Positions 255 through 39,003 of a stretch of DNA of 42,237 nucleotides are shown here, piece by piece (within the stretch, counting starts at the first letter, position 1; every line of letters starts with the position of its first letter). Source of the DNA: Candidatus Cloacimonadota bacterium (lineage in GTDB: Bacteria; Cloacimonadota; Cloacimonadia; Cloacimonadales; JAFGVF01); the NCBI GenBank assembly GCA_016838885.1, contig JAEKNW010000264.1:1-42237 (forward strand), given 5' to 3'. The notes under the pieces were generated by a model. That model saw nothing but the letters and a program-made list of their open reading frames with translations. It did no database searches and had not been told where the DNA came from. Position numbers and translations under genes: made by a program.

Positions 255-331
255 GCCCCCGTAGCTCAGTAGGATAGAGCAGTTCCCTCCTAAGGAAAAG
301 GTCAGCCGTTCGAATCGGCTCGGGGGTGCCA
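255..331 (+). tRNA. tRNA-Arg (anticodon CCU)
   Basis: A full cloverleaf can be drawn. The acceptor stem is gcccccg/cgggggt (one G-U pair), the D stem gctc/gagc, and the anticodon stem gttcc/ggaaa (one G-A mismatch at its outer pair). The 7-base loop ctcctaa gives anticodon CCT. The T stem is agccg/cggct around the loop ttcgaat. The discriminator base is G and CCA is encoded. It reads AGG codons. The half from the anticodon to CCA is duplicated at 28.27 kb and 38.96 kb, so this gene is the attachment site of the mobile elements to its right. Integration leaves the tRNA intact. Confidence 0.95.
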
Positions 332-6097: not shown

Positions 6098-6546
6098 AAG
6101 ATAGGTTAAAAGAAATCCAAAAATTACGTAATAAGCTCTGCTTAATACCAGTAAATGGTGTGACCAAAGATATTATTTATACATTTAATAATACTTATAA
6201 TATTAATTCTATCAATATTGGGTTTGAGCTGTCGAAAGTTTTGAAGAACGAAGATTTAGGTAAAAACCTTCCAATAATAGCTGTCGAAAGTTTTCGTAAA
6301 ATTATAGAAGGAAGCACTTCAGTTTATCTTGATCAAGAAACAATTATGGTATATAATTTAGGAATTTTATTAGAAGATGACCTTAATCTTAATTTAGAGA
6401 GCATTTTATTAGAAATCAGCAAAAATATAGTTGTTATTTTATTATGGGAAGGTGAAATATCTAAGCAGGGATTGCATTTTCTCAGTATAAAGCATGGTAA
6501 ATTGTTAGAATTAACAGAAAAACATTATTTACAATTGGAGATATAA
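6091..6546 (+). CDS. brxF: BrxF, small P-loop-type BREX-3 protein (degenerate)
   Basis: This is the first gene of the type 3 BREX order brxF-brxC-pglXI-brxHII-pglZ-brxA. The length (151 aa) and position fit BrxF, which in the family is a small P-loop protein. Here the place of Walker A (about residues 16-28, KLCLIPVNGVTKD) lacks GxxxxGK[ST]. The presumed Walker B strand (IMVYNLGILLEDD) lacks the usual hydrophobics-then-Asp form. The fold may be kept without ATP hydrolysis. The later segment NIVVILLWEGEI resembles the conserved strand near the end of BrxF proteins as I remember them. It overlaps the 46-aa ORF at its 5' end and is followed by brxC after one base. The assignment rests mainly on gene order and size. 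Confidence 0.7.
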   Translation: MLKDRLKEIQKLRNKLCLIPVNGVTKDIIYTFNNTYNINSINIGFELSKVLKNEDLGKNLPIIAVESFRKIIEGSTSVYLDQETIMVYNLGILLEDDLNLNLESILLEISKNIVVILLWEGEISKQGLHFLSIKHGKLLELTEKHYLQLEI

Positions 6547-6547
6547 T

Positions 6548-10198: not shown

Positions 10199-10223
10199 AA
10201 TTTAAAATTGCAAGAGAGGAAAA

Positions 10224-12890: not shown

Positions 12891-12907
12891 ATAATTTACT
12901 TAAGATA

Positions 12908-15715: not shown

Positions 15716-17564
15716 CTTTGTTACAAGTATTTTAAAGAAAGTTTTATCTTTACCTACTGAATTAATATTCATTAATGACATAGATAATATTTTCACATAT
15801 TCTGAAGTATTAAATAGATTAAATGAACTATCCTATAAGGTTTCTAACTATATATGTCCTATAGCTTTCAGAATTGAATACGAATTAGAAATTAAGCCCT
15901 TTTTGATAAGATATCCAGGATCAAAATATATTGTTAGATGTTCATCTAGCCCATATCTTCTCGAGGATATTGCTGAGCATTCAGATATTATGAAGATTAG
16001 TTTCAATGATCTATACCCTAATTTAAATAATGAGTGTTTGCATGATCTTCCAGTAATTTATTTAGACGAGCTGCTTGATATCACTAGAACTTATTTTGAG
16101 CATAAGAATAAAGAACAGACCCTAAATTTCTTACTTGAGAAAATCTATCTTATTGATCTTAGCTCTCTTAATTCTAAAGAGGCATTCATAGGAAGAATAC
16201 TCAATATTCATTCTAGGGAAATTGAGTTTAATCCCGCAACCAAGAACTTGTTAAGAGAATATGCAAACAAATATTTACCAATAGAAGAAGACCTATTTTC
16301 AAAAAGAATATTTAATATCTGGCTAAAAAAAATGTGGGATGATTATGTATTAAATCAAGATGATAAAATAGATTTTCACCACTCTCAACTTACAGAACAG
16401 TTAAGATTATATTTTATTAACCATAATATTGAACCTTGCAAAGTTGATAAAGCAAGATGGGAGGAAATAGATCTTCGTGAAGGTGTCTATTATGATCATG
16501 AAGAACAAAAGCGTTCAGATGTAGACAATATACTGAAGAGATTAGATTTAGCCCTAAATGATCCTATTAGTGAGATTAACTGGAGTGAAATGATTCGTTC
16601 AGTAAGTATGGCATACAATAACATATTAGATTATCGAAGTATTTCAGATAAACAATATCTCACAATAGAAGAAAAGTTTAACCATAAATTTCAAGATTAC
16701 TTGGATAGCTACTTTACGGGATTATCTTCAAAAAGCTCTGTTAAAAAACCATATACAGTGTCTCAGATTCTCAATTTTATGCAATTCCAAAGCAATAATG
16801 ATGCAAAACAAGCACTAATTATTATTGACGGTTTAAATTACTGGCAGTGGTATATCATAGAAACATTATTAAAGAAAGAAGCAAAGTATGAAATCTCAAC
16901 TGATGTTTGTTTCTCTTGGATACCTAGTATTACATCATTATCCCGGCAGGCTATATTTAAGGGAGCTAAACCTGATATAGAATACAACCAAAATCCTAAA
17001 AATGAAGAAAAAAACTGGAATAATTTTTGGCTATCTCAAGGAATTCCTGGGTCGGATATAAAGTACTTTAAATTTGAATTTCAGACAAAGATTGAAGATT
17101 TCTTCTTTGGCAACTCTAAATTTCTAGCTTTTGTAACTAATGATATTGATGATATTATGCATAGTGCTTTGCAAGGTAATAATGATTTATATAATTCCAC
17201 ATTATCTTGGTTAGAAAATTCACTTTTTATGAAATTATTAGCAAAATTGAAAAACGATGGTTACTTAATATATGTTGGGTCTGATCATGGAAATATTGAA
17301 GCAACTGGTTGGAGAAAACTGAAAGGTTATGAAAAATTTGGAACAAGTAAAAGCAGAAGTAGAAGACACTTGGAATATGCTAATAGGTCATTATTGAATA
17401 AATTTCTTGATCAAAATCCTGAATTGTCTAGTTCTATGGGAACGGAAGATAATCTAGCATATTTAAAGAATAAATTAGCTTTTGAGTCAGAAGGTAAGAA
17501 AATCGTAACACATGGTGGAAGCCATTTCTGGGAAGTACTAACTCCCTTCATAAGGATAAAATAA
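15708..17564 (+). CDS. pglZ: PglZ, alkaline-phosphatase-fold BREX protein (618 aa)
   Basis: PglZ is the signature BREX protein and has an alkaline-phosphatase-superfamily domain in its C-terminal half. Metal-site motifs are visible: IIDGLNYWQW (Asp ~373), VGSDHGNIEATGW (Asp-His ~525-526) and THGGSHFWEVLTPF (~600). The N-terminal 300 residues are helical and variable, as usual for the family. The ORF track begins at a TTG (15702). The ATG at 15708, inside the end of brxHII (8-bp overlap), is the more likely start. The tight overlap indicates translational coupling. The exact biochemical role of PglZ in BREX is not settled; some family members show nuclease activity. Confidence 0.92.
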   Translation: MGDFVTSILKKVLSLPTELIFINDIDNIFTYSEVLNRLNELSYKVSNYICPIAFRIEYELEIKPFLIRYPGSKYIVRCSSSPYLLEDIAEHSDIMKISFNDLYPNLNNECLHDLPVIYLDELLDITRTYFEHKNKEQTLNFLLEKIYLIDLSSLNSKEAFIGRILNIHSREIEFNPATKNLLREYANKYLPIEEDLFSKRIFNIWLKKMWDDYVLNQDDKIDFHHSQLTEQLRLYFINHNIEPCKVDKARWEEIDLREGVYYDHEEQKRSDVDNILKRLDLALNDPISEINWSEMIRSVSMAYNNILDYRSISDKQYLTIEEKFNHKFQDYLDSYFTGLSSKSSVKKPYTVSQILNFMQFQSNNDAKQALIIIDGLNYWQWYIIETLLKKEAKYEISTDVCFSWIPSITSLSRQAIFKGAKPDIEYNQNPKNEEKNWNNFWLSQGIPGSDIKYFKFEFQTKIEDFFFGNSKFLAFVTNDIDDIMHSALQGNNDLYNSTLSWLENSLFMKLLAKLKNDGYLIYVGSDHGNIEATGWRKLKGYEKFGTSKSRSRRHLEYANRSLLNKFLDQNPELSSSMGTEDNLAYLKNKLAFESEGKKIVTHGGSHFWEVLTPFIRIK

Positions 17565-17568
17565 TTTT

Positions 17569-18273
17569 ATGAAAAAATATATTGGGATCAATCAAAGAAT
17601 TCCTTTTCATGTTATCAAAACTGGAATTCAGCTGCTCTTGGATGGAGAAATGGATGACGAGTACATAAAAGAACAATTAAGATTAGATTACACTGGGGAG
17701 AATAGAATATCGAAAGGTCTTAATTGTGTTAATAAAGTACTAATAAACAATCCCCTAGCAGAGTTACTACCTAATGAAAAACCTATGCTAAAGAACATTA
17801 TTAACTCAAAAATAGATCTTCAAGCAATATCTATAGCTTTGCTATGCACAGCTTATCCATTGGCTTTTGAAATTGTTTGTGAAATGGGTAGCATATTCAA
17901 GGTACAGAATCTAGTAAGCACTCAAGTCATCATGAAAAAGATGTCTTCAATTTATGGGAGCAACAGAGTTACTGTTAACGGATTTTATAGCATTATCCCG
18001 CTACTGTTAGAATTAGAAATATTTGTTAGACCAAAGCAAGGGTTGTATGAGTTTATAGAGAAACGAGTCTTATCTAATCCACTAGCAAAAGAGCTATTTA
18101 TACTTGCCTATCTGTTAAGTAATAATAAAAAATATATTGGTTTAGATGAATTATTCCAAACTCCTTGGTTTTATTATTTTGATTTCTATGATATTGAAAA
18201 TGAACTGAAACACTTCAAGTATATCGCAATCTCTACTGATTCAACTGGTAATACTATTCTAGAGAGAATATAG
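17569..18273 (+). CDS. brxA: BrxA, BREX DUF1819-type protein (234 aa)
   Basis: Size (234 aa) and position as the last gene of a type 3 BREX operon, four bases after pglZ, identify it as BrxA. BrxA is a small helical protein (DUF1819 family) of unclear molecular role with reported DNA binding. The sequence is all-alpha in appearance, without catalytic motifs, signal peptide or membrane segments. The call depends on context more than on motifs. No clear terminator follows. The next gene starts 243 bases downstream on the same strand. Confidence 0.8.
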   Translation: MKKYIGINQRIPFHVIKTGIQLLLDGEMDDEYIKEQLRLDYTGENRISKGLNCVNKVLINNPLAELLPNEKPMLKNIINSKIDLQAISIALLCTAYPLAFEIVCEMGSIFKVQNLVSTQVIMKKMSSIYGSNRVTVNGFYSIIPLLLELEIFVRPKQGLYEFIEKRVLSNPLAKELFILAYLLSNNKKYIGLDELFQTPWFYYFDFYDIENELKHFKYIAISTDSTGNTILERI

Positions 18274-21194: not shown

Positions 21195-21794
21195 TTACAG
21201 TATCTTATCCAGATTAACATAAACATCATCTATCTGATCTTGAGTGATTCCAATATAGCGTAAAGTAACAGCCTGGGAGGAGTGGTTAAATATCCTCATA
21301 AGTAAAGATAGATCAACTCCACTTTTGAAAGCATGATAACCAAAAGTCTTTCTAAGGGTGTGAGCTCCTATTCTATCTCTGATTCCAACCCTATAGGCAT
21401 AGTCATTCAAGAACTGCCACACATATTGCCTACTCCAAGCTTGATGCGTACTAATGACATTATTGGAGTCAGAAAGGAAGAGATAATCCTCATAACTTTG
21501 TTGACTGCTACTCCACAGCTCCAATATGATCTTTCTAACATTTTCCGACAGATGAAACTGCTTAGCCTTCTCAGTTTTCTTATCCTTGATAGAAATAACT
21601 TCTCGGAATAATGGATCATTTCCTAGTTCACTGAAAACAGAATTCCACTTCAGATTAAGAATATCTGAAATCCTTAAACCTGTCTTAATCCCTATTTCAA
21701 AAAGTACTAGCTCTTTTAACTTTCCTTCTTTCCTCATTAACTTTTTAATCCGTTCAATCTTCTTAACATCTCTTATTGGTTGAACATAATTCAT
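21195..21794 (-). CDS. short tyrosine recombinase/integrase (199 aa)
   Basis: This is a site-specific recombinase with essentially only the catalytic domain. Visible catalytic elements are Arg in TGLRISDILNLKW (~40), a Lys in the beta-hairpin (SIKDKKTEKAKQFHL), HTLRKTFGYHAF (HxxR, ~144-147), a second His in IFNHSS (~167), and Tyr in VTLRYIGI (~176). The full set is present, so it is probably active. At 199 aa it has the length of FimB/FimE-type or phage-like short integrases without a core-binding domain. AAAGGAT precedes the ATG. A strong intrinsic hairpin with a T-run lies upstream on the same strand and could attenuate its expression. It is the likely enzyme for integration at the tRNA-Arg 3' end, although it sits 6.5 kb from the nearest att copy. 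A decayed paralogue is at 28.5-28.9 kb. Confidence 0.9.
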   Translation of the reverse strand: MNYVQPIRDVKKIERIKKLMRKEGKLKELVLFEIGIKTGLRISDILNLKWNSVFSELGNDPLFREVISIKDKKTEKAKQFHLSENVRKIILELWSSSQQSYEDYLFLSDSNNVISTHQAWSRQYVWQFLNDYAYRVGIRDRIGAHTLRKTFGYHAFKSGVDLSLLMRIFNHSSQAVTLRYIGITQDQIDDVYVNLDKIL

Positions 21795-23346: not shown

Positions 23347-26300
23347 TTAATCCTGTAAACGAAACATATCACCATTTAGTTCAATCATTCTTATTTTCTT
23401 TGTTCTTTTTAATTCACATCTTATAATATCAAATAGTATTTTATCAACATCAATTTGTTTGGAAAGTTCATTGGAATTAAATATTTTATTTTTCTGTAAT
23501 GATAGCAATTTCTGTTTAGTTCTTAAAAATATTTCAGAAAAATTACTATAAAATTTTATTAGGTATTGATAAATACAATTGTGTCTTATTCTCACTCCTT
23601 TTACAATTCCTGAATTGGAGGTGAACTTATCTTCTAAAATCTTAAGTTCTATTAATTTGAGTAGATGATTGTTATCATATTTATCATCATCAATGCGTAA
23701 CATTGAATTATTACTCGACAATATATCCTTGCAAAGCGACTCAAACGTTTCAAATAAATCTTTAGGTAAACTAGATATATCAAAACTAAAGGAATCATTT
23801 TCTAGCTGTTTAACATCTTTAATATAATTCTCAAAATCTTCTTTTAAAAACGTTAATATTGTCCGATTTAATAAATCAAAATCATCAGGGATACTTTCAC
23901 CAAGTAAAGCCAATCCAGATTCAAATAATCGGTCGATATACATACTACAAAAGGTATCACCAATTTGATATTTAGAATAATAGTTTTTGACACTAAAGGG
24001 CTCTTCTTTATATACTTCTGGGAGACCTCCTTTGAATATACCATACTCTGCTTTTACAGATAATTTATCAGATTTTTCACCAAACTTACATATTTGATTT
24101 GAACTTTTATCAATAATTATTGTATGATTATACTGAGTCTGTTTGTAGTGTTTAAACATATCTTTAATTTTCGGAAAATTATTTTCTATGAATAATCTGT
24201 ATTCTCTTAACAGGATTTCATATTTTTTTTCTACTAGCTTTGGAATATCATCCTTTTCATAGTTCCTAAACGATGCATTCATTCTTGATTGAACATTACT
24301 ACTCCAATCGTTAAATAGTGGAGGCAAAAGATCAAATATTTCAAGCTTATTTAGTTCGTTTATATACTTTAATAACAATAAATCATATGGTGTTAGAAAC
24401 TTTTGTAGATCATTGTTAAGTGTTGTTGTTTCTTTGTTAAACAATTCGGGTTTTATTCCTTCTTTCTCAAGAATACTTCTATAATTATCCTGATTAATCA
24501 TTCTTTGAATTTCATATTGAGTAAACTTTTCTGGCTCTTTTATTCCTCCAAATAATGAAAATATATAACATTTATGGTACACTGCATACTTAATAGTATC
24601 TAAATTTATTGGTAAATAATTTCCACAAGGTCTATATTGTTTATTCTCAATATTAAGTATATATTTATAGTTTGTAATGGTCAATATTAAAACTCTCTCA
24701 TTTAGTAGTAGAGGATTCCTCGAGATGTTAAAACTGTGATGATATTGACCATGTATGTTTAATTCAATTGTTTGAATAATTTCTTTTTCTATTTCTTTTT
24801 CATGTGAAGATTCATTTAAATCATATCCAAATGACATGCTATTTATATTAAATCTATCCACAGCTTCAAAGAAATAGTCATTTTTAACATTAAAGGGATA
24901 CATCACTATGTTTTCACTAATATCTACAGCTGAAAAAAATGAATGACTTCTACATACGTCGTCCTTTAAATCGACATGAACTAGCAAACCTGCATCGTTT
25001 TCTGAGTATGGTGATATTGCACTTCTTATGTTAGAATATTTTTCACTTACTAATGAATTCCTACTATTAATGAACTCCGTTGCCTTTTGATAAGCTTGGG
25101 GACTTATCTTTTCTTTTATACTATTGTCGCAAATAGCATAATAGGTATTCAGGACCTCTAATCTTACATTAGTTAAATTTTCTCTGTATTTTTCAAAATA
25201 ACTTGTACCCTTTGTATCTAATTCTAGTATTTTTAGTGCTATTATATAATCTCGTAATTTACTATAATAAAACTCAAGTTTAGCATCAAACTCATCACTT
25301 TTGGTTACAACAATGATATTACTTTTAAGAAGGTTCTCAGGAACTTCTACATAATTAATTCTATCAGAATTTTCTTCAAATATTTGTTTAGCAATTTCCA
25401 AAAGACTGTTCATATCATTCTGGCTGATATTGTACTTTTTTCGAATATTTTGTATATATTTGTCAATAATAGCTTTTGAGGATAACTCTAATATAAAATC
25501 TTTATCCTCCCGAAAAATAGAAAAAGCAATATGTAATAAATATGTATTTTTTTTAAATTCGTTTAACAATTCACGAGATATAACTTTTGTATATGAATAT
25601 TCTATTCTATAGTTATTTATTATTTTATCTAATTGAGAATCTAACAAATCTCTTATTTCAAAAGAGAACCTATCATTTTTCTCATCTATTTTTTCAATAA
25701 AAAGGTTAGAACATAACTTTGATGGTTCCCCATTATCATAAATATAATTATTCCAGTACATTGATTTACAGGATACAATCAAACGTAAATTCGGTTGAAT
25801 ATTATCTATAGCGTCATTCAAGATTATATTTTTATTAGCAGTAGACTTTTCATCAAGCCCGTCAATAAAAATGTACAAAATACTATCACCAATTATTTCG
25901 CTTAACTTTTCTATTCCATCATGAGTTGATTTTGTATTCTCGAAGAAGGGGAGATCTTTTAGCCTTTCAATAATATCATCGTAAATCCCAGTTTTAACAT
26001 TCCCAAATCTTTTCAAATAAACAAATTGTCCTTGATCTAAAAGTTGCTTTGCTTTGTAACACATCCAACATGTCTTGCCCATACCTGAAGAAGCAATAAC
26101 AGAAAATGCTTTCACTTGAGATTTCATGAAACTATTAAATGATTTTTCTAAACGTGGATGTGGTTCAAATAATGGTGGATAATATGATTTATCATCATGA
26201 ATATCTTTAGCAACTAATTGAGATGTATTTCTATCATATTCTGCTATTAATTTGCTTTTTAAATCAGATTTTTGCTTATCTTCTAAAACAAGTAGTTCTT

Positions 26301-26943
26301 CTTTTTTGATATCTGGAAATTCTAGTATCTTATTAATGTTAATACAATCATAAGTACAAAACTCACCATTTTTATTTGAAAATCCTGTAACTATGCCTAT
26401 TAAACAAGGATAGCCATTAATGTGTTGAAAAATTCCACTTCCCGAGATTCCTTCAAAATTACTTCCACTACCTTCTATTTTCTGGATAAATTCTTCAGTG
26501 CTTCCTTTTAACTCAAACTTATAATTGTAATTGTAATTATCAGTTATTGTGCAATCTATAATATTCTGACCTTTACCCTGTTTAATCTTTGGGTAACCTC
26601 TGAAGAAACACTTAGCATCCAGTTCGTAATAAGGCTCGTTAAAAATAATTTTGTTTACCCAAGACGAATCACTATCAATTCTAATCAATGCTATATCGAT
26701 ATCCTTTTGATCAAAATCTGGTAATGTAAATATATCTTCACAATTATATTCATCTCCATCATGGTCTTTTATAATGATTGAACTTTCCGATGGATGTTGA
26801 CCATAATCTTTACCATAGATAACATGAGCGGCAGTGATTACATAAGCTCTATCATCAATTTTAAAAAGAGTACCACTTCCAACTAAAGCATTTTTAATGT
26901 AAATTCTTGCAGAAGTATTCTTTAATAATTCTATAATTTTCAC
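23347..26943 (-). CDS. Avs1b-like trypsin-like protease/NACHT-type NTPase (1198 aa)
   Basis: The N-terminal domain is a trypsin-like serine protease with a complete triad: His40 in VITAAHV, Asp83 in KDIDIALI and Ser167 in GISGSG. A STAND NTPase of NACHT type follows, with Walker A at ~284-291 (ASSGMGKT) and a Walker B of the NACHT form at ~358-364 (FIDGLDE). The last ~800 residues are helical with no recognisable repeat and should be the sensor region. Avs proteins of this class recognise phage proteins, oligomerise and switch on the effector domain. The start is GTG, and its first four bases overlap the stop of the upstream MBL gene (GTGA), so the two are coupled. The pairing matches AVAST type 1 (Avs1a MBL plus Avs1b protease). 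The protein's exact trigger is unknown. Confidence 0.8.
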   Translation of the reverse strand: MKIIELLKNTSARIYIKNALVGSGTLFKIDDRAYVITAAHVIYGKDYGQHPSESSIIIKDHDGDEYNCEDIFTLPDFDQKDIDIALIRIDSDSSWVNKIIFNEPYYELDAKCFFRGYPKIKQGKGQNIIDCTITDNYNYNYKFELKGSTEEFIQKIEGSGSNFEGISGSGIFQHINGYPCLIGIVTGFSNKNGEFCTYDCININKILEFPDIKKEELLVLEDKQKSDLKSKLIAEYDRNTSQLVAKDIHDDKSYYPPLFEPHPRLEKSFNSFMKSQVKAFSVIASSGMGKTCWMCYKAKQLLDQGQFVYLKRFGNVKTGIYDDIIERLKDLPFFENTKSTHDGIEKLSEIIGDSILYIFIDGLDEKSTANKNIILNDAIDNIQPNLRLIVSCKSMYWNNYIYDNGEPSKLCSNLFIEKIDEKNDRFSFEIRDLLDSQLDKIINNYRIEYSYTKVISRELLNEFKKNTYLLHIAFSIFREDKDFILELSSKAIIDKYIQNIRKKYNISQNDMNSLLEIAKQIFEENSDRINYVEVPENLLKSNIIVVTKSDEFDAKLEFYYSKLRDYIIALKILELDTKGTSYFEKYRENLTNVRLEVLNTYYAICDNSIKEKISPQAYQKATEFINSRNSLVSEKYSNIRSAISPYSENDAGLLVHVDLKDDVCRSHSFFSAVDISENIVMYPFNVKNDYFFEAVDRFNINSMSFGYDLNESSHEKEIEKEIIQTIELNIHGQYHHSFNISRNPLLLNERVLILTITNYKYILNIENKQYRPCGNYLPINLDTIKYAVYHKCYIFSLFGGIKEPEKFTQYEIQRMINQDNYRSILEKEGIKPELFNKETTTLNNDLQKFLTPYDLLLLKYINELNKLEIFDLLPPLFNDWSSNVQSRMNASFRNYEKDDIPKLVEKKYEILLREYRLFIENNFPKIKDMFKHYKQTQYNHTIIIDKSSNQICKFGEKSDKLSVKAEYGIFKGGLPEVYKEEPFSVKNYYSKYQIGDTFCSMYIDRLFESGLALLGESIPDDFDLLNRTILTFLKEDFENYIKDVKQLENDSFSFDISSLPKDLFETFESLCKDILSSNNSMLRIDDDKYDNNHLLKLIELKILEDKFTSNSGIVKGVRIRHNCIYQYLIKFYSNFSEIFLRTKQKLLSLQKNKIFNSNELSKQIDVDKILFDIIRCELKRTKKIRMIELNGDMFRLQD

Positions 26944-27977
26944 TTCAAGATCTCCTCATTAATATATCGACATTCAAAGTTATATTCCAATTCTTCATCT
27001 GAAGTTACAATAATAGTGTTTTTACTCATCTCAATTTCCTCTTTTTTATAGTTAAACCAAAAGACTATTTTATCGATCATGTCTCTATTTGGATTACATA
27101 CTATCTTGGCTATAGTTTCTCTGTCTGGGTGTTTAGAACTTCCATAACCACCATTCGTGCTGACTATATAATTATTAGACTTAATAATTGATAAAAAGGC
27201 TTTAGATATGCTATATTTACTTCCATGATGCGATAATTTAACATAGTCAATTATAAGAGGATTTAATTCATTGTATCCTATTTTACGTAAATTTTGTTCA
27301 ATAATAGTTGGATTTGAGTCTGCTAGTAATAAAATAGAATTGTCGTTATCCTCTAATAATAGTACAATTGATGAATCATTTAAAATGTCATTATTTATAC
27401 TATCATTATAGGTTTCTAATGTCTTCAAATCTACAAGATCTTGACCGATATCAATAGACTTTTTAGTAGAATCATTTTGAACTGTTTCATATTTGTGAAA
27501 TTCTTCCTTCAACTTATCTAATTGAATTTTATTTGGAGATAATACTTTAATCTCTAATCCATCTTTTACAAGCGTCCTAAGAGCAGAATTATTTTCAAAG
27601 CTGAGTGAACTACACTTGTGAAATTGATTATTTTTTTTTAAAAATCCAATAAGGTTATTTGCTTGAGAAATACTTTTCTTTGTATTATTTTCTATTATGT
27701 TAATTAATTCAGGCGTATTGATAAAGTACTTCAAGATATTTGTAGGAATTGACTGTCCCATACTACATAACTTAAGAAAACCACCAATATGATCATCATC
27801 TATGTGTGTTAAGATAAAAGCTTCTAGTTGATGAATTGCTTCAAACTCTTTCTTTAATAAAAAGGATGTAGCATTAACTCCACTATCAATTAGTATGAAA
27901 CGTTCGTCTCCATCAGGTGTATGCCATTTAATAATTATACAATCACCGTGCTTAGCTTTTAATACTTTAATCTCCAT
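26940..27977 (-). CDS. Avs1a-like MBL-fold hydrolase (345 aa)
   Basis: This is a metallo-beta-lactamase-fold protein of the ComEC/competence-like subgroup. The metal motif is THIDDDHIGG (His58, Asp60, Asp62, His63). Further ligand motifs are LLLADSN (Asp) and KLSHHGSKYS (His). The start MEIKVLKAKHGDCI is typical of the family, so the ATG at 27977 is trusted. It overlaps a 28-aa ORF upstream (11 bp) and the protease/NACHT gene downstream (4 bp). In AVAST type 1 systems an MBL-fold protein accompanies the protease-STAND protein. Its substrate is not known: phosphodiester bonds or small nucleotides are possible. Confidence 0.82.
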   Translation of the reverse strand: MEIKVLKAKHGDCIIIKWHTPDGDERFILIDSGVNATSFLLKKEFEAIHQLEAFILTHIDDDHIGGFLKLCSMGQSIPTNILKYFINTPELINIIENNTKKSISQANNLIGFLKKNNQFHKCSSLSFENNSALRTLVKDGLEIKVLSPNKIQLDKLKEEFHKYETVQNDSTKKSIDIGQDLVDLKTLETYNDSINNDILNDSSIVLLLEDNDNSILLLADSNPTIIEQNLRKIGYNELNPLIIDYVKLSHHGSKYSISKAFLSIIKSNNYIVSTNGGYGSSKHPDRETIAKIVCNPNRDMIDKIVFWFNYKKEEIEMSKNTIIVTSDEELEYNFECRYINEEILK

Positions 27978-28268: not shown

Positions 28269-28315
28269 TCCTAAGGAAAAGGTCAGCCGTTCGAATCGGC
28301 TCGGGGGTGCCAATT
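28269..28315. repeat. att copy 2 (tRNA-Arg 3' half)
   Basis: Identical over 47 bp to 288-334, without the 5' half of the tRNA, so it is not a functional tRNA. It is the junction between element 1 and element 2. GTGAAAA-type heptamers follow at 28317-28344. Confidence 0.85.
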
Positions 28316-28479
28316 AAGCGAAAAGTGAAAAATGAAAAGTGAAATAAAGTAACACCATAATTGCTACAATTTCGACTGATTTTACATATAACTTACTAAT
28401 ATAGATTAAAAATAAAGTGTTTTCATAAGTGACAGCAAGGTTGCCACTTTGCAAAAGCTTTCCACAAAAAAAAGAATTG

Positions 28480-28857
28480 CCAGACATATTGCCTACTCCA
28501 AGCTTGTTGCTTACTAACAACCTTATTAGAGGCAGAGAGGAATAGATAATCCTCATATCTTTGTTGATTGCTAACCCACAATTCTAATATTACTTTCCGA
28601 ACAATATCAGATTAATGAAACTGTTTAGCCTTCCTAGTTTTCTTCTCCTTGATACTAATAATTTCTCGGAAGGCTGGATTATCTCCTGATTCACTGAAAA
28701 CAGAACTCCACTTCAGATTAAGAATATCAGATATCCTTAATCCTGTCTTAATCCCAATCTCAAAAAGTACTAACTCTTTTAGCTTCCCTTCTTTTCTCAT
28801 CAACTTCTTAATCCGATCAATTTTCCTAACATCTCTTATTGGTTGAACATAATTCAT
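28480..28857 (-). pseudogene. decayed copy of the tyrosine recombinase
   Basis: The first ~81 codons match the intact recombinase closely (MNYVQPIRDVRKIDRIKKLM...). The next codon is a TAA where the intact gene has a Leu codon (after KAKQFH). Beyond it the same frame still aligns for about 40 residues (VRKVILELW..., then QAWSRQYVWQF), after which the similarity ends near 28480. The catalytic HxxR, second His and Tyr are missing. It is therefore an in-frame nonsense mutation plus a 3' truncation. The track ORF at 28314-28556 is a shadow of this remnant. Confidence 0.85.
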
Positions 28858-29653: not shown

Positions 29654-32600
29654 ATGAAAAAAATCTTAGCTTTAGTTTTCTTTATATCTTTGAGTTACCA
29701 TTTATTCGGATTAGGAAATATTAACGGTAACGTCGATATTGTTGGACAAGAAGATAATTCTGGTGTTATTGTCCAACTTCTACAAACTGGCGATATAGCT
29801 ACAACTAATTCTACAGGGAGTTTCGAGTTTAACAATCTTTATTATGGAAATTATTCATTAATTATCCAAAAAAATGGGTGCTTAACCAAATTTGTAGATC
29901 AGATATTGGTAGATGATAACAATCAATTCATTGAAGAACAGCTATATCAAGGTGACTTGAACACCGACGGTATCATTGATATTCTTGATAGAGTCCTTGT
30001 ATCTCATTCACTTAATAGCAGTTTTGGAGAAGAAGGTTATATTGCAGAAAAAGACTTCAATCAAGATGGTGTGATTGATGATTTGGATGTACAATATCTA
30101 ATTACTTATTGGAATCAAAGAAGTAGTGAAACACTAAACATTATTGATCCAGAAGTTGGAGGATTTGTTGTTCAAGGTAACATCTCCATCAGTTTTCCAA
30201 GCGGCAGCTTTGAGGAAAGTACACAGATAGAAATAACTCAAAGTGAAGAAATCCCTTTTGAAGCAAGTGAATATAACATAACACCAGTCAGTGATTATTA
30301 TAGCTTTAATAATGAAGGAATTCAGCTAAATGAACATGCCATCGTTGCCCTAAAAGTTGATAGTAGTATTTTTTCAGAAGATGTGGAAATAGAATTTTAT
30401 AGAATGTATCATTATTATTACGATGAACGAAGAGAAGAATATACGGTTGATTACCTTCCATTTTGGATTGATGAAGATAGTGGATTAGTACTATCTGAAA
30501 TAGACCACTTTTCTGGAATATTCTTAGGAGTAGATGTAAATGCATTACCAACATATAATTTTACAATTCCTATACCTGTAAATCAAGTAATTACTTTTCA
30601 AGAACCCTATGCTTTGTACGAATTTCCAGAACTCTTGAATATTGATAGTTTTGAATTATCCCCCCAAGTTCCCGGTCCTCTTTTTAACACCTATGACCAT
30701 TCAAGCGGTTGGTTAAATCATAGTGATTATTGGGGATCGGTTCATTGTCCCCCAGAAATATCAGATAATAACTGGATAGTAGTCTATTGTAGTGTTTATG
30801 ATAATGGGGAATATAGAGTTCCAACAAATCCTGCTTTTTCTGATTTAATTTTTTCTGGAGATAGCGAAGATACTATGAAATCCTTTTTATCTTTTAATGT
30901 GGATTTATCTAACTTAACTAGTGCAGTTTTGGAATTTGATTTATTTGTACAGGCTTATGATGCAAAAGATTATTTTTCAGTTTATGTAGTACCATATTCG
31001 CTGTATCAAGGTAATGTCGCTTACGGGGCTGTAGCATTAACACCATCTTTTATGAGATTTCCATTGAGAGATGTTGATAATAATCCTTCTAGAACATTTA
31101 ATACAGGGGATGCTCATGTTAGCCCTGACGTTGATGACTGGGTACATAAAGGTTATAACTTGTTTTCTGGAATTGGTGTTGTTCCTGGTTCATCAAATCC
31201 CTTAGTTCAAGTATCTTTATGTTTTCAAGCAGACAACGACAATGACAGAATGGCAGGTGCTTTTATTGATAATCTAAAAATTGTAGCAACTAATGGTATA
31301 GATGTCAATATCACATGTTCAGATACTTCACCTCTAATTAATCAAAATATAACATTTAATGCAAATTATTCCGATCCAATAGGAGATCTTGCAGGATATA
31401 GATGGGATTTTGGTGATGGAAGCGTGGAAGAATTTGTTGCTAGTTCAGTATCTTCAATAACACACTCTTACTCATCTACTGGCTCTAAAAATGTTACTCT
31501 CACTGTCTGGGATGAGGGTGGTAATTTCAATTATACACATGATGACATAGAGTTTAAGATGAATCATGCAACTGCCAATGATAATATTACAATCAATGTA
31601 ACTCAATCCCAACCAAACCAAGCTCCAGATACATGGATAACTAACAATCCAGGATCCAGTATAAACACAAATAGTGCTAGTTTTAGTTGGAATGGTTCCG
31701 ATCCAGATGGATATGTGGTAGGTTATTACTATGAATTAGATGATTCAACCCCAGATAACTGGACAACTGGTAGAAATGTAACACTAAATAACATTTCTCC
31801 AGGAAGTCATACTTTCTTTGTCCGTGCCAAGGATGATGATGGCTTGGTAGATCCAACACCAGCATCTTATACTTTTACCTATACTCCTACACCATCCGTT
31901 CAAATAACATTTACAAATCCAAGTAATGGATCAAGTACCAGCACTCGGATTATATCAGTAGAAGGGTATCTGAATAATACCAGTATCACTAATATGAATC
32001 TTAATGTAAATGGTGCTAATTACTCTATTGCTGTAAATAATGGTAATTTTGTAAATGCTGTTTATATTAGGCAAGGGACAAATACAATCACTGCATCAGT
32101 TCCTGGATATACAGGGAGTGCTACCCTTACTGTAACTGGAAATATGCAACCTGTTGATATGACATCAATCCTTACATGGAATAGTGCTACTGATGTAGAT
32201 CTCTATGTAGAAGATCCTAATGGTGAAATATGTTATTATAACCATCAAAATACAGCAATAGGTGGGCATTTAGATAGAGATGATACAGATGGTTATGGAC
32301 CTGAAACTTTTACTCTTGAAGATGGAGAAGTCATTGATGGTCAGTATCATATCAGGGTAAATTATTATAGTGGGTCTAATCCAGTTAACTCATCTGTTTA
32401 TACGCTTTTAAATGAAGGGGCTCCTAATCAAGTGTCTTATTCTGATGGACCACATACATTGTCTGAGCCAAGTGGTGGAAGTTCAACACCTACTGGAGCA
32501 TGGTGGAATGTAAGAACAGTAACCTTCAACTTAAGAGCGCCAATACCACCTAATTTGAATTTAATAAAAGAGGAAAATAGGTTATTTTTAGAATGGGAGA

Positions 32601-32947
32601 GCTGTCTCGATGGAGATATATACAGCTATGAAGTTAAGTATTCAGATACTCCGAATGTAGCAATCAATTCATCTTTGTTAAAATCACTCAATGTAGATAA
32701 ACCAGATATCGAAGAAATATGGAATAGTCGAAAAGTCATTGCAAAAGAAGATGTGGTGAAAGAAATATCTGATAGTAAAGAAGTTGTTTCTAGAAAAATA
32801 AACAGAATTGAAATCCCTAAAGAAATGTATGAAGAAAATATTTCTTATGTAAAACTCTTTATTTATGAGGATTCAGGAGTATGGTCAGAATCAGAAGTGT
32901 TAGAAATTAACTATAATCACGCTCAAAATGGAGGTTATAATGAATAG
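29654..32947 (+). CDS. secreted protein with dockerin-like, PKD and DUF2135-like domains (1097 aa)
   Basis: An exported protein with a signal peptide (residues 1-19, MKKILALVFF...). A carboxypeptidase-regulatory-like beta-sandwich (~20-90) is followed by a dockerin-like module (~99-153) with two Ca-binding loops, DLNTDGIIDILD and DFNQDGVIDDLD, in the duplicated layout of type I dockerins. A long beta-rich region (~160-550) leads to a PKD domain (~555-640, YRWDFGDGS), an Fn3/Ig-like domain (~660-750), another beta-sandwich (~755-830) and a DUF2135-like domain (~835-965, SATDVDLYVEDPNGE). No sorting domain is present at the C-terminus. GGAGGAAAA precedes the ATG. It overlaps the next gene by 8 bp, whose product has a cohesin-like module. 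Binding between the two is a reasonable inference, not shown. Confidence 0.82.
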   Translation: MKKILALVFFISLSYHLFGLGNINGNVDIVGQEDNSGVIVQLLQTGDIATTNSTGSFEFNNLYYGNYSLIIQKNGCLTKFVDQILVDDNNQFIEEQLYQGDLNTDGIIDILDRVLVSHSLNSSFGEEGYIAEKDFNQDGVIDDLDVQYLITYWNQRSSETLNIIDPEVGGFVVQGNISISFPSGSFEESTQIEITQSEEIPFEASEYNITPVSDYYSFNNEGIQLNEHAIVALKVDSSIFSEDVEIEFYRMYHYYYDERREEYTVDYLPFWIDEDSGLVLSEIDHFSGIFLGVDVNALPTYNFTIPIPVNQVITFQEPYALYEFPELLNIDSFELSPQVPGPLFNTYDHSSGWLNHSDYWGSVHCPPEISDNNWIVVYCSVYDNGEYRVPTNPAFSDLIFSGDSEDTMKSFLSFNVDLSNLTSAVLEFDLFVQAYDAKDYFSVYVVPYSLYQGNVAYGAVALTPSFMRFPLRDVDNNPSRTFNTGDAHVSPDVDDWVHKGYNLFSGIGVVPGSSNPLVQVSLCFQADNDNDRMAGAFIDNLKIVATNGIDVNITCSDTSPLINQNITFNANYSDPIGDLAGYRWDFGDGSVEEFVASSVSSITHSYSSTGSKNVTLTVWDEGGNFNYTHDDIEFKMNHATANDNITINVTQSQPNQAPDTWITNNPGSSINTNSASFSWNGSDPDGYVVGYYYELDDSTPDNWTTGRNVTLNNISPGSHTFFVRAKDDDGLVDPTPASYTFTYTPTPSVQITFTNPSNGSSTSTRIISVEGYLNNTSITNMNLNVNGANYSIAVNNGNFVNAVYIRQGTNTITASVPGYTGSATLTVTGNMQPVDMTSILTWNSATDVDLYVEDPNGEICYYNHQNTAIGGHLDRDDTDGYGPETFTLEDGEVIDGQYHIRVNYYSGSNPVNSSVYTLLNEGAPNQVSYSDGPHTLSEPSGGSSTPTGAWWNVRTVTFNLRAPIPPNLNLIKEENRLFLEWESCLDGDIYSYEVKYSDTPNVAINSSLLKSLNVDKPDIEEIWNSRKVIAKEDVVKEISDSKEVVSRKINRIEIPKEMYEENISYVKLFIYEDSGVWSESEVLEINYNHAQNGGYNE

Positions 32948-35900
32948 ATTATTTTTAAGCTTAGTAATAATCGTTTTAGCTATTAATATATATGGTATAT
33001 CCTTTAATACAACAAATGAAGATTTTGCCCAATTTGATGAAATTGAAGTTTCAATACAATCAGATAGTCTGATATTAGACCTAAAAGCGTTTGATTTTCA
33101 AATTAATTATGATTCTAATATCTTACACTTTGATGGTTGGCAATTAAATGATATAATAAGTAATTTCACAATTGACAAAGCAGAAGCAGACAGCTTGAAT
33201 GGAACAATTCATATTATAGGATGTATTGATAATCAACCGAATGGGGTGCAAGTAGGAATTAACTCCTCATTTGTAAATTTTCATTTTACCGCTATAGAAG
33301 TTGGCGTATGTGAACTGAGTTGGCAAGAATATCCCAATATCTGTTGCGATTCAAATCTTGTATCTTATAGACTTGATACATTTTCTCATAGTTTGATAAT
33401 ACACCCTGATTTGAATGGTTCAGGATCTGAACAAGACCCTTTTCTTATTACAAACCTAGATGAGTTAAGATTTTTGAGTGAAAATCCTGGAGTAGTGACA
33501 GTAGGATATCACTTTCAGCTGTTGAATGATATTGATGCATCAGAAACTGAAAATTGGAATGCTGGATTTGGTTTATTGCCTATTGGGAATTTAACAGATA
33601 GATTTAGAGGTGGTTTTGATGGAAATGGTCATACAATATCAAATCTTTATATTAATAGACCTGAGCAGGATTATGTTGGTTTGTTTGGTTACATAGATGA
33701 ATCTATTATAAGTAATATAGGTTTAATTGATAGTGATATAACTGGAAAAATGTACGTAGGGAGCTTGGCTGGTTATAGTTCTTGCAGTACTATTGATAAC
33801 AGCTATGCAACTGGGAATGTTAGTAGTAATGGTTCAGTTTCCGGTGGTTTGATAGGTTCTCAAGCTTCAGGAACTGTCAACAACTGCTATGCATCCGGGA
33901 GTCTTTCGTGTGGTTGGCTTAGTTACGGTGGTTTGATAGGTTATCTAATTTCAGGAACTGTTAACAACTGCTATGCGACAGTCAGTGTTGATAGTTATGG
34001 AGGAGGCTTGGTTGGTTATAGTAATAGTGGAGCAACTATTAATAACAGTTTTTGGGATATTGAGACATCTGGTCTAACTACAAGTGCTGGAGGTATAGGT
34101 TTAACGACATATCAGATGAAAACACCCTCATATTTTGTTGATGCTGGGTGGAGTCTTATAGTTTATAATGCGTATGATGAAGCAGATTGGGGTTTTAGGC
34201 CTGACATTAATGAGTGTTATCCTGCTCTTATTTGGCAGATACCTGATGTTTTTGATGATGTTGATGAAGAAGCTCCTAGACAGCCATCAGACTTTAATTA
34301 TATGTATGGTGAAGTAGAAGTACCAGTAGATGGAACATTGAGTTGGACTTTTGGAGAAAACACAGAAACCTATGATGTTTATTTTGATACAGTTTACCCC
34401 CCTGAAAATATGGTAATTGATGAAGAGATAGCTGGAGAGAACGGTACTTACTCATTTGAGGATTTACTTTATGGTACGAGATATTACTGGAAAATCGTAA
34501 CAAAGAACTCATATTCAGAACACAATACAAATTGTATTGGGTGGTTCAATACTACCACAGGAGTTAACAACTATGTTCTAGAAGTTTCTCCTCCCAAAGA
34601 TCAACTACTAGACTACTTACCATCGGAGTTGCTTTTCATATTAAATGACAATATAGAGTATGTTGAGTTATGGTTTGGTGACATAGAATCACAGACAGAA
34701 GTTGTAATACCTTTAACTATTGCTTCTGATACATTGACTTATCAACTCCCAGATATAGACTACTTACATAACCAGTATTATTGGACTTTAGTTTATTTCG
34801 ATACTGAATTAATGGAACACAGTTTAAATGGATATTTTATCACACCTTTGAATAACTTGGGTGGTGATGGTTCAGAATCTAGTCCTATACAGATTTCCAC
34901 ATTAAACGAATTACAGATATTTAATAATCTTTACCCTTACCACAATAACAGTGATCCATATTTTGAACTTGCTAATGATATAGATGCTTCAGCGACTATT
35001 GATTGGAACGAAGGAGCAGGATTTGAACCCATTGGGTCAAATGATAACAGATTCACAGGTAACTTTAAAGGGAATGGTTTTATAATCTCAAATCTCTATA
35101 TAAACCGCCCCACCCAGGATTATGTTGGGCTTTTTGGATACACTGATAATTCAAATTTAGCGAGCGTGTATTTAGAAGATGTTGATATAAACGCAAATCA
35201 AAATGTTGGGGGGTTAAGTGGATGCAAACTCTGGGGTCAAGTCAATGACTGCTTTGTTACAGGAATCGTCAGTGGAACGTCAGAAGTAGGTGGACTGATT
35301 GGTAAATTTCATTATGGTCCTGCCACTAACTGCTATGCAAGTGTTAATGTGAGTGGGTCTGGGAATAATGTCGGTGGATTAATAGGAGATTGTTTGGTGG
35401 CACTCGACAGCTGCTATGCTACTGGAAATGTGAGTGGATCAGGGAATGCGACCGGCGGGTTGATTGGGTATCAGCGAGGGGGTGATTTAGAGGAAGAATT
35501 CACTAATTGTTATTCTACTGGAAATGTAAGTGGATCGTATCAAGTAGGTGGGTTGGTCGGGTTATCTTTTGGAATATACGGCAATTGTTATGCCACTGGG
35601 AATGTAAGCGGATCTTCTAGAGTTGGCGGTTTAATTGGAAACCAAGGGTCTCCAGGTTGGGGATATTCTGGAGTAAGAAATTGCTATGCAACTGGTAATG
35701 TGGATGGTGATGATAATGATGTTGGAGGGTTGATAGGGTTTCAATATACTGGTACAACCAGCAATAGCTATGCAACAGGTGATATTTCAGGCTCTTCTCT
35801 TGTCGGTGGTTTGGTAGGTATTCTAAGTTCAGGAACTGTCAATAATAGCTATGCAACTGGTAATGTGAATGGTGATTATGCTGGAGGGTTGATAGGGTAT

Positions 35901-38690
35901 CTATGGACTGGAGGGATCGCCAGCAATAGCTATGCAACAGGTGGTGTTACAGGTTCTTCTCATGTAGGTGGTTTGATAGGTTTTCTAAATTCAGGAACTG
36001 TCAACAACAGCTTTTGGGATATTGAGACATCTGGTCAAACTACAAGCGCTGGAGGTTCAGATGCTACAGGGTTAACAACACAGCAAATGAAAACACCTGC
36101 AATATTTGTAGATGCTGATTGGAGTGTAGTTGGTTTCAATGCTGATATTGATGGAGATTGGTTTTTTAATCCCAGCATTAATGATCTGTATCCTGCTCTT
36201 TCATGGCAGGTTTCTGGTGTTGTTGCCCCTATCCTAACCTATCCAAGAGATAATGGAGAAACTGCAATAACAGGAGAACAACTAATATGGGAAGCTGATC
36301 TATTTGAACATGCTACTTCATATCTTTTGAGTGTAGGGACTGACAACCCACCAACTAATATATTACATAATCAGGATATAGGGTTAGTAACCAACTATTT
36401 ATTTGCTGGGATTGGAGCAGATGCAGAATACTATTGGCAAGTGATCCCTGTAGATGCTGACGGTAATGAAGCTGAGAACTGCCCAATCAGGAGCTTTTCC
36501 ACCGTAAATATCGCCTCAGTGTTGGCTCAAAACAAGATAATTGAATCAACTATTCCTATCAATGGTAACTACCCTATGAGTTATAGCCAAACTATATTCT
36601 TTCAATCTGAACTCACAAGTATTGATCCTATTATCGATAGACTATATTTAAAAAGAAATACCTCAGAATCGATCACAGGTTCTGAAAATTTGCGAATCTA
36701 TCTAGCTCATACTGACAAAACAGAGTTTGAAGCAGAGAACGACTGGGTAACTATTACTGATGGTTTAATACAAGTAGCAGAGATCTCAGTTGGAGAAGGA
36801 GATTGGGTTGAGCTTCAGTTTGAAAATCCATTTATCTATAATCAAAATGATAATTTAGTTGTAGGGATAGCAGATTATGTTAATAATGCTAATACTTCAA
36901 TATCACCATTCTTAGCATTGGAAGTAGATGGTTATCGATCAATTAGTTATTGCTCAGATAGTAGTATACCATACCCCATTATACCATATGAAGGAACAAG
37001 ACACGAAGCAGTTGCTTATATAGCTTTTGAGATCAAAGACATTGTCGTTGGGAATGTGTCTCCAGTTAATGGTGTCATAGAATTATATGAAACAGAATCC
37101 CAACTGTTTCAAGTGTTTGCAGATGATCCATTAAATCATAGTTTATTATACAGTTGGAAGCTAGATTGTGAGGAAGTCTCAAATTCAGATTCTTTACTTT
37201 TTAATACTGATTATGATACAGCTGGAGAATACAGTTTAACGCTTTCAATTAGTAGGGATTATTCATCGTATAATAGAAAACAAAATCCAACATTAACTAG
37301 AAGAAATGTTGAAACTTTTGAGTGGACTATAATTGTACATGATATTGACCAAAATATAGTAATTACTGATTTATCCTTTGCTTTTGAAGAAGATGGTGTT
37401 TGGAATCCTATTGACCAAATTATTTGTGAAAACGAAACACTCAATTTCTATATAAACGCAAGTGACCCTGATGGTAATGATTTAACTTATAGTTGGTTGC
37501 TAAATCATGTAGAAGTCTCTGCAAGTTCTTTATATCAGTTTCAAACTGATTATAATTTGGCTGGAAGTTATACACTTGAGCTGATTCTAGATGACAACTA
37601 TATTCGTGAGCAAATAATTACTTCTAGACTTAATAATCGAAGAAATAGTAAAAGTTCATCTATGTCTCGTGAAAGATTCGATAATAACCCCATATCTAAG
37701 TTTTCAGTTGATAGAACATTAAGAGCTGCTATTAGAGATACGCAGACATTCACTTGGCAGATTGAAGTAAGTGATGTAGATCAAACAATCGTTATTCATG
37801 ATTTATCTTATGCAACAGCATTAGAGGGGGTCTGGACTCCAGTTGACCAATTTATCAGTGAAACCGAAACACTCAATTTCTATATAAACGCAAGTGACCC
37901 TGATAGTAATGATTTAACTTATAGTTGGATATTAAATGGAACCGAAGTCTCTACATCGGCAACCTATCTATTTGAGACAGATTATGATTCTGCTGGTGAA
38001 TATACACTAGAATTAATTATTAATGATAACTATGGTGATGTTGCTTTAAGAAACATTCAATCATTTAACTGGAATATTGAAGTAACTGATGTTGATCAAG
38101 AGATTGAAATTACTGATTTGTCTTATGCTACTGAATTAGATGGTGTATGGACACCTGAAGATCAGATGTTTGAAGAACATACAATCCTCAATTTCTTTGT
38201 CAATGCTTTCGATCCTGATGGACAAGATTTATCTTATGAATGGCAGTTAAATGATACTGTAGTTTCAGATACTCAATCATTCGATTATGATAGTTCAAAT
38301 TATCAGAATAATACTTATGAAGTGAAGCTAACATTATCTGATGGGTTTAGAGATACTCAAGAATATATTTGGAGTGTAGTGCAAGCTGTTTCGAATGAAG
38401 ATGATATAGAGGCTATTACTGTTACTAAGTTAGGTAGCATATACCCCAATCCTTTTAATCCAAGTACAACAATTAACTTTAATATTGCCAGAAAAGATAT
38501 TGCAAGTATGAGGATATATAATATTAAAGGACAGCTTGTAAAAGACTTCGGTGAGTTTGTTAAATCACAAAATACTGTTACTTGGTATGGCCAAGATAAT
38601 AATAACAAGTCAGTTGGATCTGGATTGTACTTGGTGGTTATGAAAAGTAAATCAAATGTAGAAACTAAGAAGATAATTCTAATGAAATAG
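32940..38690 (+). CDS. surface protein with cohesin-like module, GLUG arrays and sorting domain (1916 aa)
   Basis: The track start (32928) is less likely than the ATG at 32940, which has GGAGGT five bases upstream and begins a clean signal peptide (MNRLFLSLVIIVLAINIYG). Residues ~20-140 look like a cohesin: FDEIEVSIQS, a strand with FDFQINYDSNILHF, then a closing FVNFHFTAIEVG. Two arrays of GLUG repeats follow (about 220-400 and 690-1030; units such as GGLIGFL...GTVNNSYATGNV). Each array ends in a near-identical SFWDIETSG segment. Fn3-like domains lie between and after them, then several PKD/Ig-like repeats (~1380-1820). The C-terminus is the FlgD-like sorting domain (SIYPNPFNPSTTINF ... KKIILMK). 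It is probably exported and anchored at the cell surface, with an adhesin or scaffold role inferred. The gene is coupled to the upstream dockerin-type gene. Confidence 0.85.
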   Translation: MNRLFLSLVIIVLAINIYGISFNTTNEDFAQFDEIEVSIQSDSLILDLKAFDFQINYDSNILHFDGWQLNDIISNFTIDKAEADSLNGTIHIIGCIDNQPNGVQVGINSSFVNFHFTAIEVGVCELSWQEYPNICCDSNLVSYRLDTFSHSLIIHPDLNGSGSEQDPFLITNLDELRFLSENPGVVTVGYHFQLLNDIDASETENWNAGFGLLPIGNLTDRFRGGFDGNGHTISNLYINRPEQDYVGLFGYIDESIISNIGLIDSDITGKMYVGSLAGYSSCSTIDNSYATGNVSSNGSVSGGLIGSQASGTVNNCYASGSLSCGWLSYGGLIGYLISGTVNNCYATVSVDSYGGGLVGYSNSGATINNSFWDIETSGLTTSAGGIGLTTYQMKTPSYFVDAGWSLIVYNAYDEADWGFRPDINECYPALIWQIPDVFDDVDEEAPRQPSDFNYMYGEVEVPVDGTLSWTFGENTETYDVYFDTVYPPENMVIDEEIAGENGTYSFEDLLYGTRYYWKIVTKNSYSEHNTNCIGWFNTTTGVNNYVLEVSPPKDQLLDYLPSELLFILNDNIEYVELWFGDIESQTEVVIPLTIASDTLTYQLPDIDYLHNQYYWTLVYFDTELMEHSLNGYFITPLNNLGGDGSESSPIQISTLNELQIFNNLYPYHNNSDPYFELANDIDASATIDWNEGAGFEPIGSNDNRFTGNFKGNGFIISNLYINRPTQDYVGLFGYTDNSNLASVYLEDVDINANQNVGGLSGCKLWGQVNDCFVTGIVSGTSEVGGLIGKFHYGPATNCYASVNVSGSGNNVGGLIGDCLVALDSCYATGNVSGSGNATGGLIGYQRGGDLEEEFTNCYSTGNVSGSYQVGGLVGLSFGIYGNCYATGNVSGSSRVGGLIGNQGSPGWGYSGVRNCYATGNVDGDDNDVGGLIGFQYTGTTSNSYATGDISGSSLVGGLVGILSSGTVNNSYATGNVNGDYAGGLIGYLWTGGIASNSYATGGVTGSSHVGGLIGFLNSGTVNNSFWDIETSGQTTSAGGSDATGLTTQQMKTPAIFVDADWSVVGFNADIDGDWFFNPSINDLYPALSWQVSGVVAPILTYPRDNGETAITGEQLIWEADLFEHATSYLLSVGTDNPPTNILHNQDIGLVTNYLFAGIGADAEYYWQVIPVDADGNEAENCPIRSFSTVNIASVLAQNKIIESTIPINGNYPMSYSQTIFFQSELTSIDPIIDRLYLKRNTSESITGSENLRIYLAHTDKTEFEAENDWVTITDGLIQVAEISVGEGDWVELQFENPFIYNQNDNLVVGIADYVNNANTSISPFLALEVDGYRSISYCSDSSIPYPIIPYEGTRHEAVAYIAFEIKDIVVGNVSPVNGVIELYETESQLFQVFADDPLNHSLLYSWKLDCEEVSNSDSLLFNTDYDTAGEYSLTLSISRDYSSYNRKQNPTLTRRNVETFEWTIIVHDIDQNIVITDLSFAFEEDGVWNPIDQIICENETLNFYINASDPDGNDLTYSWLLNHVEVSASSLYQFQTDYNLAGSYTLELILDDNYIREQIITSRLNNRRNSKSSSMSRERFDNNPISKFSVDRTLRAAIRDTQTFTWQIEVSDVDQTIVIHDLSYATALEGVWTPVDQFISETETLNFYINASDPDSNDLTYSWILNGTEVSTSATYLFETDYDSAGEYTLELIINDNYGDVALRNIQSFNWNIEVTDVDQEIEITDLSYATELDGVWTPEDQMFEEHTILNFFVNAFDPDGQDLSYEWQLNDTVVSDTQSFDYDSSNYQNNTYEVKLTLSDGFRDTQEYIWSVVQAVSNEDDIEAITVTKLGSIYPNPFNPSTTINFNIARKDIASMRIYNIKGQLVKDFGEFVKSQNTVTWYGQDNNNKSVGSGLYLVVMKSKSNVETKKIILMK
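37433..37496. repeat. 64-bp near-identical internal repeat, copy 1
   Basis: Matches 37865-37928 with one difference, while the surrounding domain repeats are clearly diverged. This indicates recent duplication or gene conversion within the gene. Confidence 0.75.
37865..37928. repeat. 64-bp near-identical internal repeat, copy 2
   Basis: Partner of 37433-37496. Both encode the strand ETLNFYINASDPD of consecutive PKD/Ig-like repeats. Confidence 0.75.
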
Positions 38691-38957: not shown

Positions 38958-39003
38958 TCCTAAGGAAAAGGTCAGCCGTTCGAATCGGCTCATGGGTGCC
39001 ATT
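38958..39003. repeat. att copy 3 (tRNA-Arg 3' half, diverged)
   Basis: Matches att copies 1 and 2 except that the acceptor strand reads catgggt instead of cgggggt, and one A is missing just after CCA. It marks the right end of element 2. GTGAAAA heptamers follow (39004-39026). Confidence 0.8.

Follow-up and report, generated by a model that had tools for sequence, protein, structure and literature searches.

The gene pair and its island

The window, which is the whole stretch of 42,237 nucleotides analysed, contains two long adjacent genes whose products we call P1 and P2. An earlier note on this DNA had described them as a dockerin-like and a cohesin-like surface protein, and this observation is confirmed as real and correctly spotted. 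The genes and the features that delimit the surrounding element are as follows.

255..331, forward strand: intact tRNA-Arg (CCT), its last 44 nt at the 3' end (288-331) presumably serving as attachment core
28269..28312, forward strand: identical 44-nt copy of the tRNA-Arg 3' end, at the boundary between two tandem islands
28471..28857, reverse strand: decayed tyrosine-recombinase copy, residues 1-129 of 199 with one stop, 82% identical to 21195-21794
29654..32947, forward strand: P1 (1097 aa), secreted, with its dockerin near the N-terminus and no type IX secretion system (T9SS) sorting domain
32930..32934, forward strand: GGAGG ribosome-binding site of P2, inside the 3' end of P1
32940..38690, forward strand: P2, a surface protein of 1916 aa with signal peptide, cohesin, GLUG repeats, Ig/PKD domains and a T9SS C-terminal sorting domain (CTD)
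38958..39001, forward strand: 44-nt copy of the tRNA-Arg 3' end with 2 mismatches, at the right end of the P1/P2 island

Both open reading frames are present at 29654-38690 as had been claimed, and the overlap of 8 bp (32940-32947) holds with ATG 32940 as the P2 start. An alternative start at 32928, which would lengthen the overlap to 20 bp, is less likely. The 8-bp overlap, with the ribosome-binding site of P2 lying within P1, is an arrangement typical of translational coupling.

The window consists of two tandem islands at one tRNA-Arg gene, the second of which (about 10.7 kb) carries P1, P2 and the truncated recombinase. No 44-nt repeats of the tRNA-Arg 3' end, such as those at 288-331, 28269-28312 and 38958-39001, are expected by chance, and with direct repeats of the tRNA 3' end at both borders and an integrase, this is a tRNA-associated island. 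A shared sequence with a repeated GTCATGCA (GTCATGCAACCGTCATGCA motif) lies just inside the right ends of both islands. The term mobile element, used in the earlier note, is thus borne out by the tRNA 3'-end repeats and the integrase remnant, but only in part: because the integrase copy is truncated, carries a stop and lacks its C-terminal part, the P1/P2 island looks immobilised and is probably no longer mobile by itself. Elsewhere in the same genome, contig C349 (13461-13649) encodes a C-terminal fragment of the same recombinase (residues 137-199, 90% identical), complementary to the truncated window copy at 28471-28857. No relatives of the island were found among the plasmids searched, no phage structural gene turned up among the proteins searched, and the viral contigs searched contained no relatives of P1 or of the P2 N-terminal module.

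The first island carries a type 3-like BREX set, an Lmu/Avs1-like pair and the tyrosine recombinase at 21195-21794. The BREX-type defence set (6091-17564) comprises BrxF, BrxC/PglY, PglXI, a BrxHI/HII-type helicase and PglZ, and an ORF at 17569-18273 comes next. On the reverse strand, 23347-27977 encodes a metallo-beta-lactamase-fold protein and a large protein matching PADLOC LmuA; the small protein of this pair has weaker DRT-MBL/Avs1a matches, and the pair is a candidate second defence system of the first island. The tRNA-proximal end (803-4723) encodes a long, putatively secreted protein of 1306 aa in which no sorting domain was recognised.

Domain architecture of P1 and P2

The modules of the two proteins, all on the forward strand, are distributed as follows.

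29750..29956, forward strand: CarboxypepD_reg-like (CnaB/transthyretin-type) module of P1, directly before the dockerin (25.7 bits, Pfam cut-off 32.3)
29951..30109, forward strand: type I dockerin of P1, with the two calcium-binding loops DLNTDGIIDILD and DFNQDGVIDDLD
31337..31540, forward strand: PKD domain of P1 (best stretch aa 562-629, Pfam)
32336..32431, forward strand: DUF2135-like segment of P1 (sub-threshold Pfam match)
32991..33419, forward strand: divergent cohesin-family module of P2 (aa 18-160, recognised with a profile of phylum cohesins)
33672..34100, forward strand: first GLUG-repeat block of P2 (limits approximate)
35190..36060, forward strand: second GLUG-repeat block of P2 (limits approximate)
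37335..38270, forward strand: three repeated PKD modules of P2
38439..38678, forward strand: Por_Secre_tail T9SS type A sorting domain of P2 (Pfam, NCBIfam)

P1 has a signal-peptide-like start followed by the CarboxypepD_reg-like module, the dockerin, and then PKD, fn3-like and DUF2135-like stretches. The two DxNxDG loops that had been read in dockerin order belong to a canonical type I dockerin: aa 100-152 match Pfam Dockerin_1 (PF00404) with 32.9 bits against a cut-off of 22.9, and both loops are intact, with D-x-N-x-D-G and the later D at positions 9 and 12. The best PDB sequence match of this dockerin is that of a cellulosomal GH48 enzyme (E 2.6e-7). As the earlier note stated, P1 has no T9SS sorting domain by Pfam or NCBIfam searches, nor does Pfam find a glycoside hydrolase in either protein of the pair. 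The region aa 740-960 of P1 is related to other conserved Cloacimonadota proteins. Because relatives match separate parts of P1 in different proteins, and no full-length relative was found in the 125 Cloacimonadota genomes searched (partial matches only, to differing proteins), P1 is, by sequence comparison, a mosaic.

P2 begins with a signal-peptide-like start and the cohesin module, continues with GLUG blocks and Ig-like and PKD modules, and ends in Por_Secre_tail (aa 1834-1913), which scores 34.6 bits with Pfam and 37.7 bits with TIGR04183, in agreement with the cell-surface sorting domain that had been claimed for its end. The own genome has a SprA_N match and approximately 96 CTD matches, and since SprA is present, a T9SS is available in this genome. 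P2 shares its C-terminal domain with T9SS type A cargo and differs from most such cargo in having a cohesin, whereas P1 is not CTD cargo.

The cohesin-like start of P2 is beyond the reach of standard searches: neither Pfam nor NCBIfam matches the N-terminal module, PDB sequence searches gave nothing meaningful for it, and Pfam Cohesin (PF00963) matches nothing in P2 or anywhere in its own genome. Matches of the P2 N-terminus to coronavirus-spike PDB entries (E 0.02 and up) were dismissed as chance. A profile built from 66 clean sense-strand modules of Cloacimonadota relatives, with the window excluded, gives aa 18-160 a score of 27.0 bits, against 14.6 for the best of approximately 18,000 scored shuffles and no more than 6.0 bits for every other tile of P1 and P2. 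Cruder earlier cohesin models gave the module 8.2, 19.5 and 23.8 bits; the first of these, made from 30 diverse loci with partly wrong-strand translations, had a shuffle maximum of 20.4 and did not separate P2. The cohesin call depends on a clean alignment, because that faulty profile left P2 within the shuffles. An hhalign comparison of an intermediate cohesin alignment with the single P2 sequence gave 81.9% probability, and 9 of the 24 weak tblastn matches of the module that were compared in relatives fall on Pfam cohesins. Identity to relatives is 10-22%, and no close relative of the module was found in the phylum. The profile evidence indicates that aa 18-160 of P2 are a genuine but very divergent cohesin-family module, as the earlier note had suspected. 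The P1 dockerin, too, diverges in sequence from the mainstream type of the phylum, as the P2 cohesin does.

An AlphaFold2 model of the P2 module made with an alignment of Stygibacter-type cohesins reached pLDDT 79 and pTM 0.74; the single-sequence model had a pLDDT of 30.5. Cohesins or cohesin-containing complexes account for 49 of the 50 best PDB structure matches of the cohesin-guided model (TM approximately 0.5-0.7), the other being a fibrillar-adhesin CLIPPER domain. Because the sequences aligned were chosen as cohesins, this fold match is a consistency check rather than independent evidence. Among the best structural matches are the non-cellulosomal cohesins of Archaeoglobus fulgidus (2xdh) and of Clostridium perfringens GH84C/GH33 (2w1n, 2jh2, 2vo8). 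Like the P2 module as modelled, they have a cohesin fold outside cellulosomes, but they come from other phyla, domain contexts and export routes, and are only approximately 10-13% identical to P2.

Cohesins and dockerins in the genome and the phylum

The P1 dockerin is the only dockerin found in its own genome, which is 99.3% complete. A model that included the window sequence found three cohesin-like modules there: that of P2, one on contig C21 (E 1e-9) and a weak one on contig C118 (E 0.003). The C21 module lies within a calcineurin-like phosphoesterase protein with a T9SS CTD (locus L124, 148-2850). Because the C21 and C118 modules could also bind the sole dockerin, the earlier description of the pair as self-contained is doubtful. 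It is unlikely that the sole dockerin lies beside one of the few cohesins by chance, although such adjacency does not amount to proof of binding: with approximately three cohesin-like modules and a rough count of approximately 2,900 genes, we estimate the chance at approximately 0.2%, or approximately 3% if the neighbour is assumed to be drawn from the approximately 96 CTD proteins. A true cellulosome was rejected on the basis of the single dockerin and the absence of an enzyme. No multi-cohesin scaffoldin was found in the genome, P2 itself having one cohesin, and P1, the sole protein with a dockerin, lacks any enzyme domain.

Non-cellulosomal cohesins and dockerins are reportedly widespread, as Peer et al. 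are said to have described in 2009. Among the 125 Cloacimonadota genomes, cohesins occur in 72 and dockerins in 70; both occur in 48 (odds ratio 2.8, P 0.006, a test that ignores relatedness). A contig scan for cohesins with a narrow alignment returned three scaffoldin loci only. A cohesin/dockerin scaffoldin system with a CTD has already been reported in the phylum, in Ca. Stygibacter (Williams et al. 2021, PMC8542988), with multi-cohesin scaffoldins and dozens of dockerins that are C-terminal on hydrolases. The window genome falls in the order containing Ca. Stygibacter frigidus, and the two systems also have in common a CTD on the cohesin protein and signal peptides on the dockerin proteins. 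The pair described here differs in its sole dockerin, which is N-terminal, in the single cohesin per protein and in the absence of an enzyme. The earlier placement of the pair outside a cellulosome context therefore holds for this genome but not for the phylum, which has scaffoldin systems and similar gene pairs.

The dockerin and cohesin loci that we surveyed are a non-random set, mostly from dockerin-rich genomes (loci L134 and L096 cover one and the same stretch of contig), and their dockerin proteins form two main groups. In the first, the dockerin is at the extreme C-terminus of a protein without a CTD, which is the case in 53 of 55 CTD-less dockerin proteins. The second comprises 59 proteins in which a CTD comes after the dockerin, at a distance of mostly 100-230 aa; the intervening stretch is a cohesin scoring above all shuffles in 21 of the 59 (survey loci L032-L196), and such dockerin-cohesin-CTD chains could polymerise or form an internal clasp. 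A CTD is present in 16 of the 20 cohesin-only proteins, the four exceptions being lone cohesins of 160-175 aa. With its N-terminal dockerin and no CTD, P1 stands outside both main groups. Its nearest precedents are two CTD-less proteins from distant genera (L065, 655-1776, genome G092; L142, 1864-3012, genome G117) with an N-terminal dockerin and a remainder that, from reading the sequence, we take to be phosphoesterase-like. Three things are unusual about the pair: its dockerin is N-terminal, its cohesin is divergent, and it takes the form of a two-gene island.

The earlier note had also proposed a survey of Cloacimonadota for like pairs, and CTD-less dockerin genes adjacent to CTD-bearing cohesin genes were indeed found in five genomes, the Stygibacter-type G082, G087, G088 and G089, and G117. 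One such arrangement is a cluster (contig C249 of G087, with counterparts in G082, G088 and G089; survey locus L101, 1851-4776, with counterparts in L102, L103 and L104) that encodes a Porphyromonas-type peptidylarginine deiminase with a C-terminal dockerin, a lone cohesin and a cohesin with a T9SS CTD. As in P1/P2, a CTD-less dockerin gene adjoins a CTD-bearing cohesin gene and there is no glycoside hydrolase. Unlike P1/P2, the cluster has its dockerin at the C-terminus of an enzyme, its cohesins are short and recognisable by Pfam, and it includes an extra lone cohesin; it is not orthologous to P1/P2.

A proposed docking model and its alternatives

We propose, with a probability of roughly 0.5, that P1 and P2 together make up a minimal surface assembly of two components, in which P2 displays P1 by calcium-dependent docking. 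The T9SS would export P2, whose C-terminal sorting domain would keep it at the outer surface, and its GLUG, Ig and PKD modules would form a long stalk that carries the N-terminal cohesin well away from the membrane. P1, the other product of the overlapping gene pair, would be exported by its own signal peptide, and its calcium-loaded dockerin would plug into the P2 cohesin. The PKD, fn3 and DUF2135-like modules of P1 would thereby be exposed, and would probably act as an adhesive or ligand-binding head, in an assembly in which no carbohydrase would take part.

It is possible, if somewhat unlikely, that the two proteins do not dock on each other. The dockerin would then be a structural spacer stabilised by calcium, and the cohesin-like module of P2 a further beta-sandwich stalk or a ligand-facing domain of a T9SS adhesin. 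This would fit with a P2 cohesin too divergent for Pfam and PDB sequence searches, and with the many Cloacimonadota chains that carry both a dockerin and a cohesin before the CTD, for which intermolecular docking is not obvious. Because the P2 cohesin is far from any characterised one, its dockerin-binding face may have been lost. The preservation of both calcium loops in P1 argues against such a purely structural role, as does the recurrence in relatives of adjacent pairs with complementary presence and absence of the CTD.

Less probable is that the main partner of the P1 dockerin is a different cohesin made by this cell, for example the C21 cohesin-phosphoesterase-CTD protein, and that P2 is a neighbouring adhesin. 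The C21 module is well recognised and its protein also has a T9SS CTD, and a dockerin is not obliged to prefer its genetic neighbour; however, C21 is on a separate contig, and the overlap of the P1 and P2 genes and their common island point to P2 as the partner. It is very unlikely that P1 and P2 are cargo in decay that no longer has a function, as the truncated, stop-containing integrase copy and the lack of full-length P1 relatives might suggest, because the intact frames of 1097 and 1916 codons, the signal peptides, the intact sorting domain and the good ribosome-binding site indicate that selection still acts.

The model of docking between P1 and P2 can be extended to export itself. The dockerin may stand in for the T9SS sorting domain: CTD-less dockerin proteins would then cross the outer membrane while attached to a cohesin partner that has a CTD, a form of hitchhiker export that would take in both P1 and the terminal-dockerin proteins of the Stygibacter-type relatives. 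The idea comes from the position of the dockerin in those 53 of 55 CTD-less proteins, where it occupies the usual place of the CTD, and from the CTD of the 16 of 20 cohesin-only proteins. We regard it as quite unlikely; the same data fit equally well with dockerin proteins that are released in some other way and dock once they are at the surface.

The P1/P2 pair is a divergent and minimal variant without enzymes, is partly explained by the known biology of the phylum, and would be a pared-down version of an assembly principle that is already known. If P1 and P2 bind, this Gram-negative-type bacterium would be using cohesin-dockerin docking, encoded by two genes of a genomic island and without any enzyme, for surface display, far removed from plant-wall digestion. 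Being so highly divergent, the pair could serve as an orthogonal protein-coupling tool. Binding between P1 and P2 would also make testable the route by which dockerin proteins that lack a T9SS signal come to the surface of diderm bacteria.
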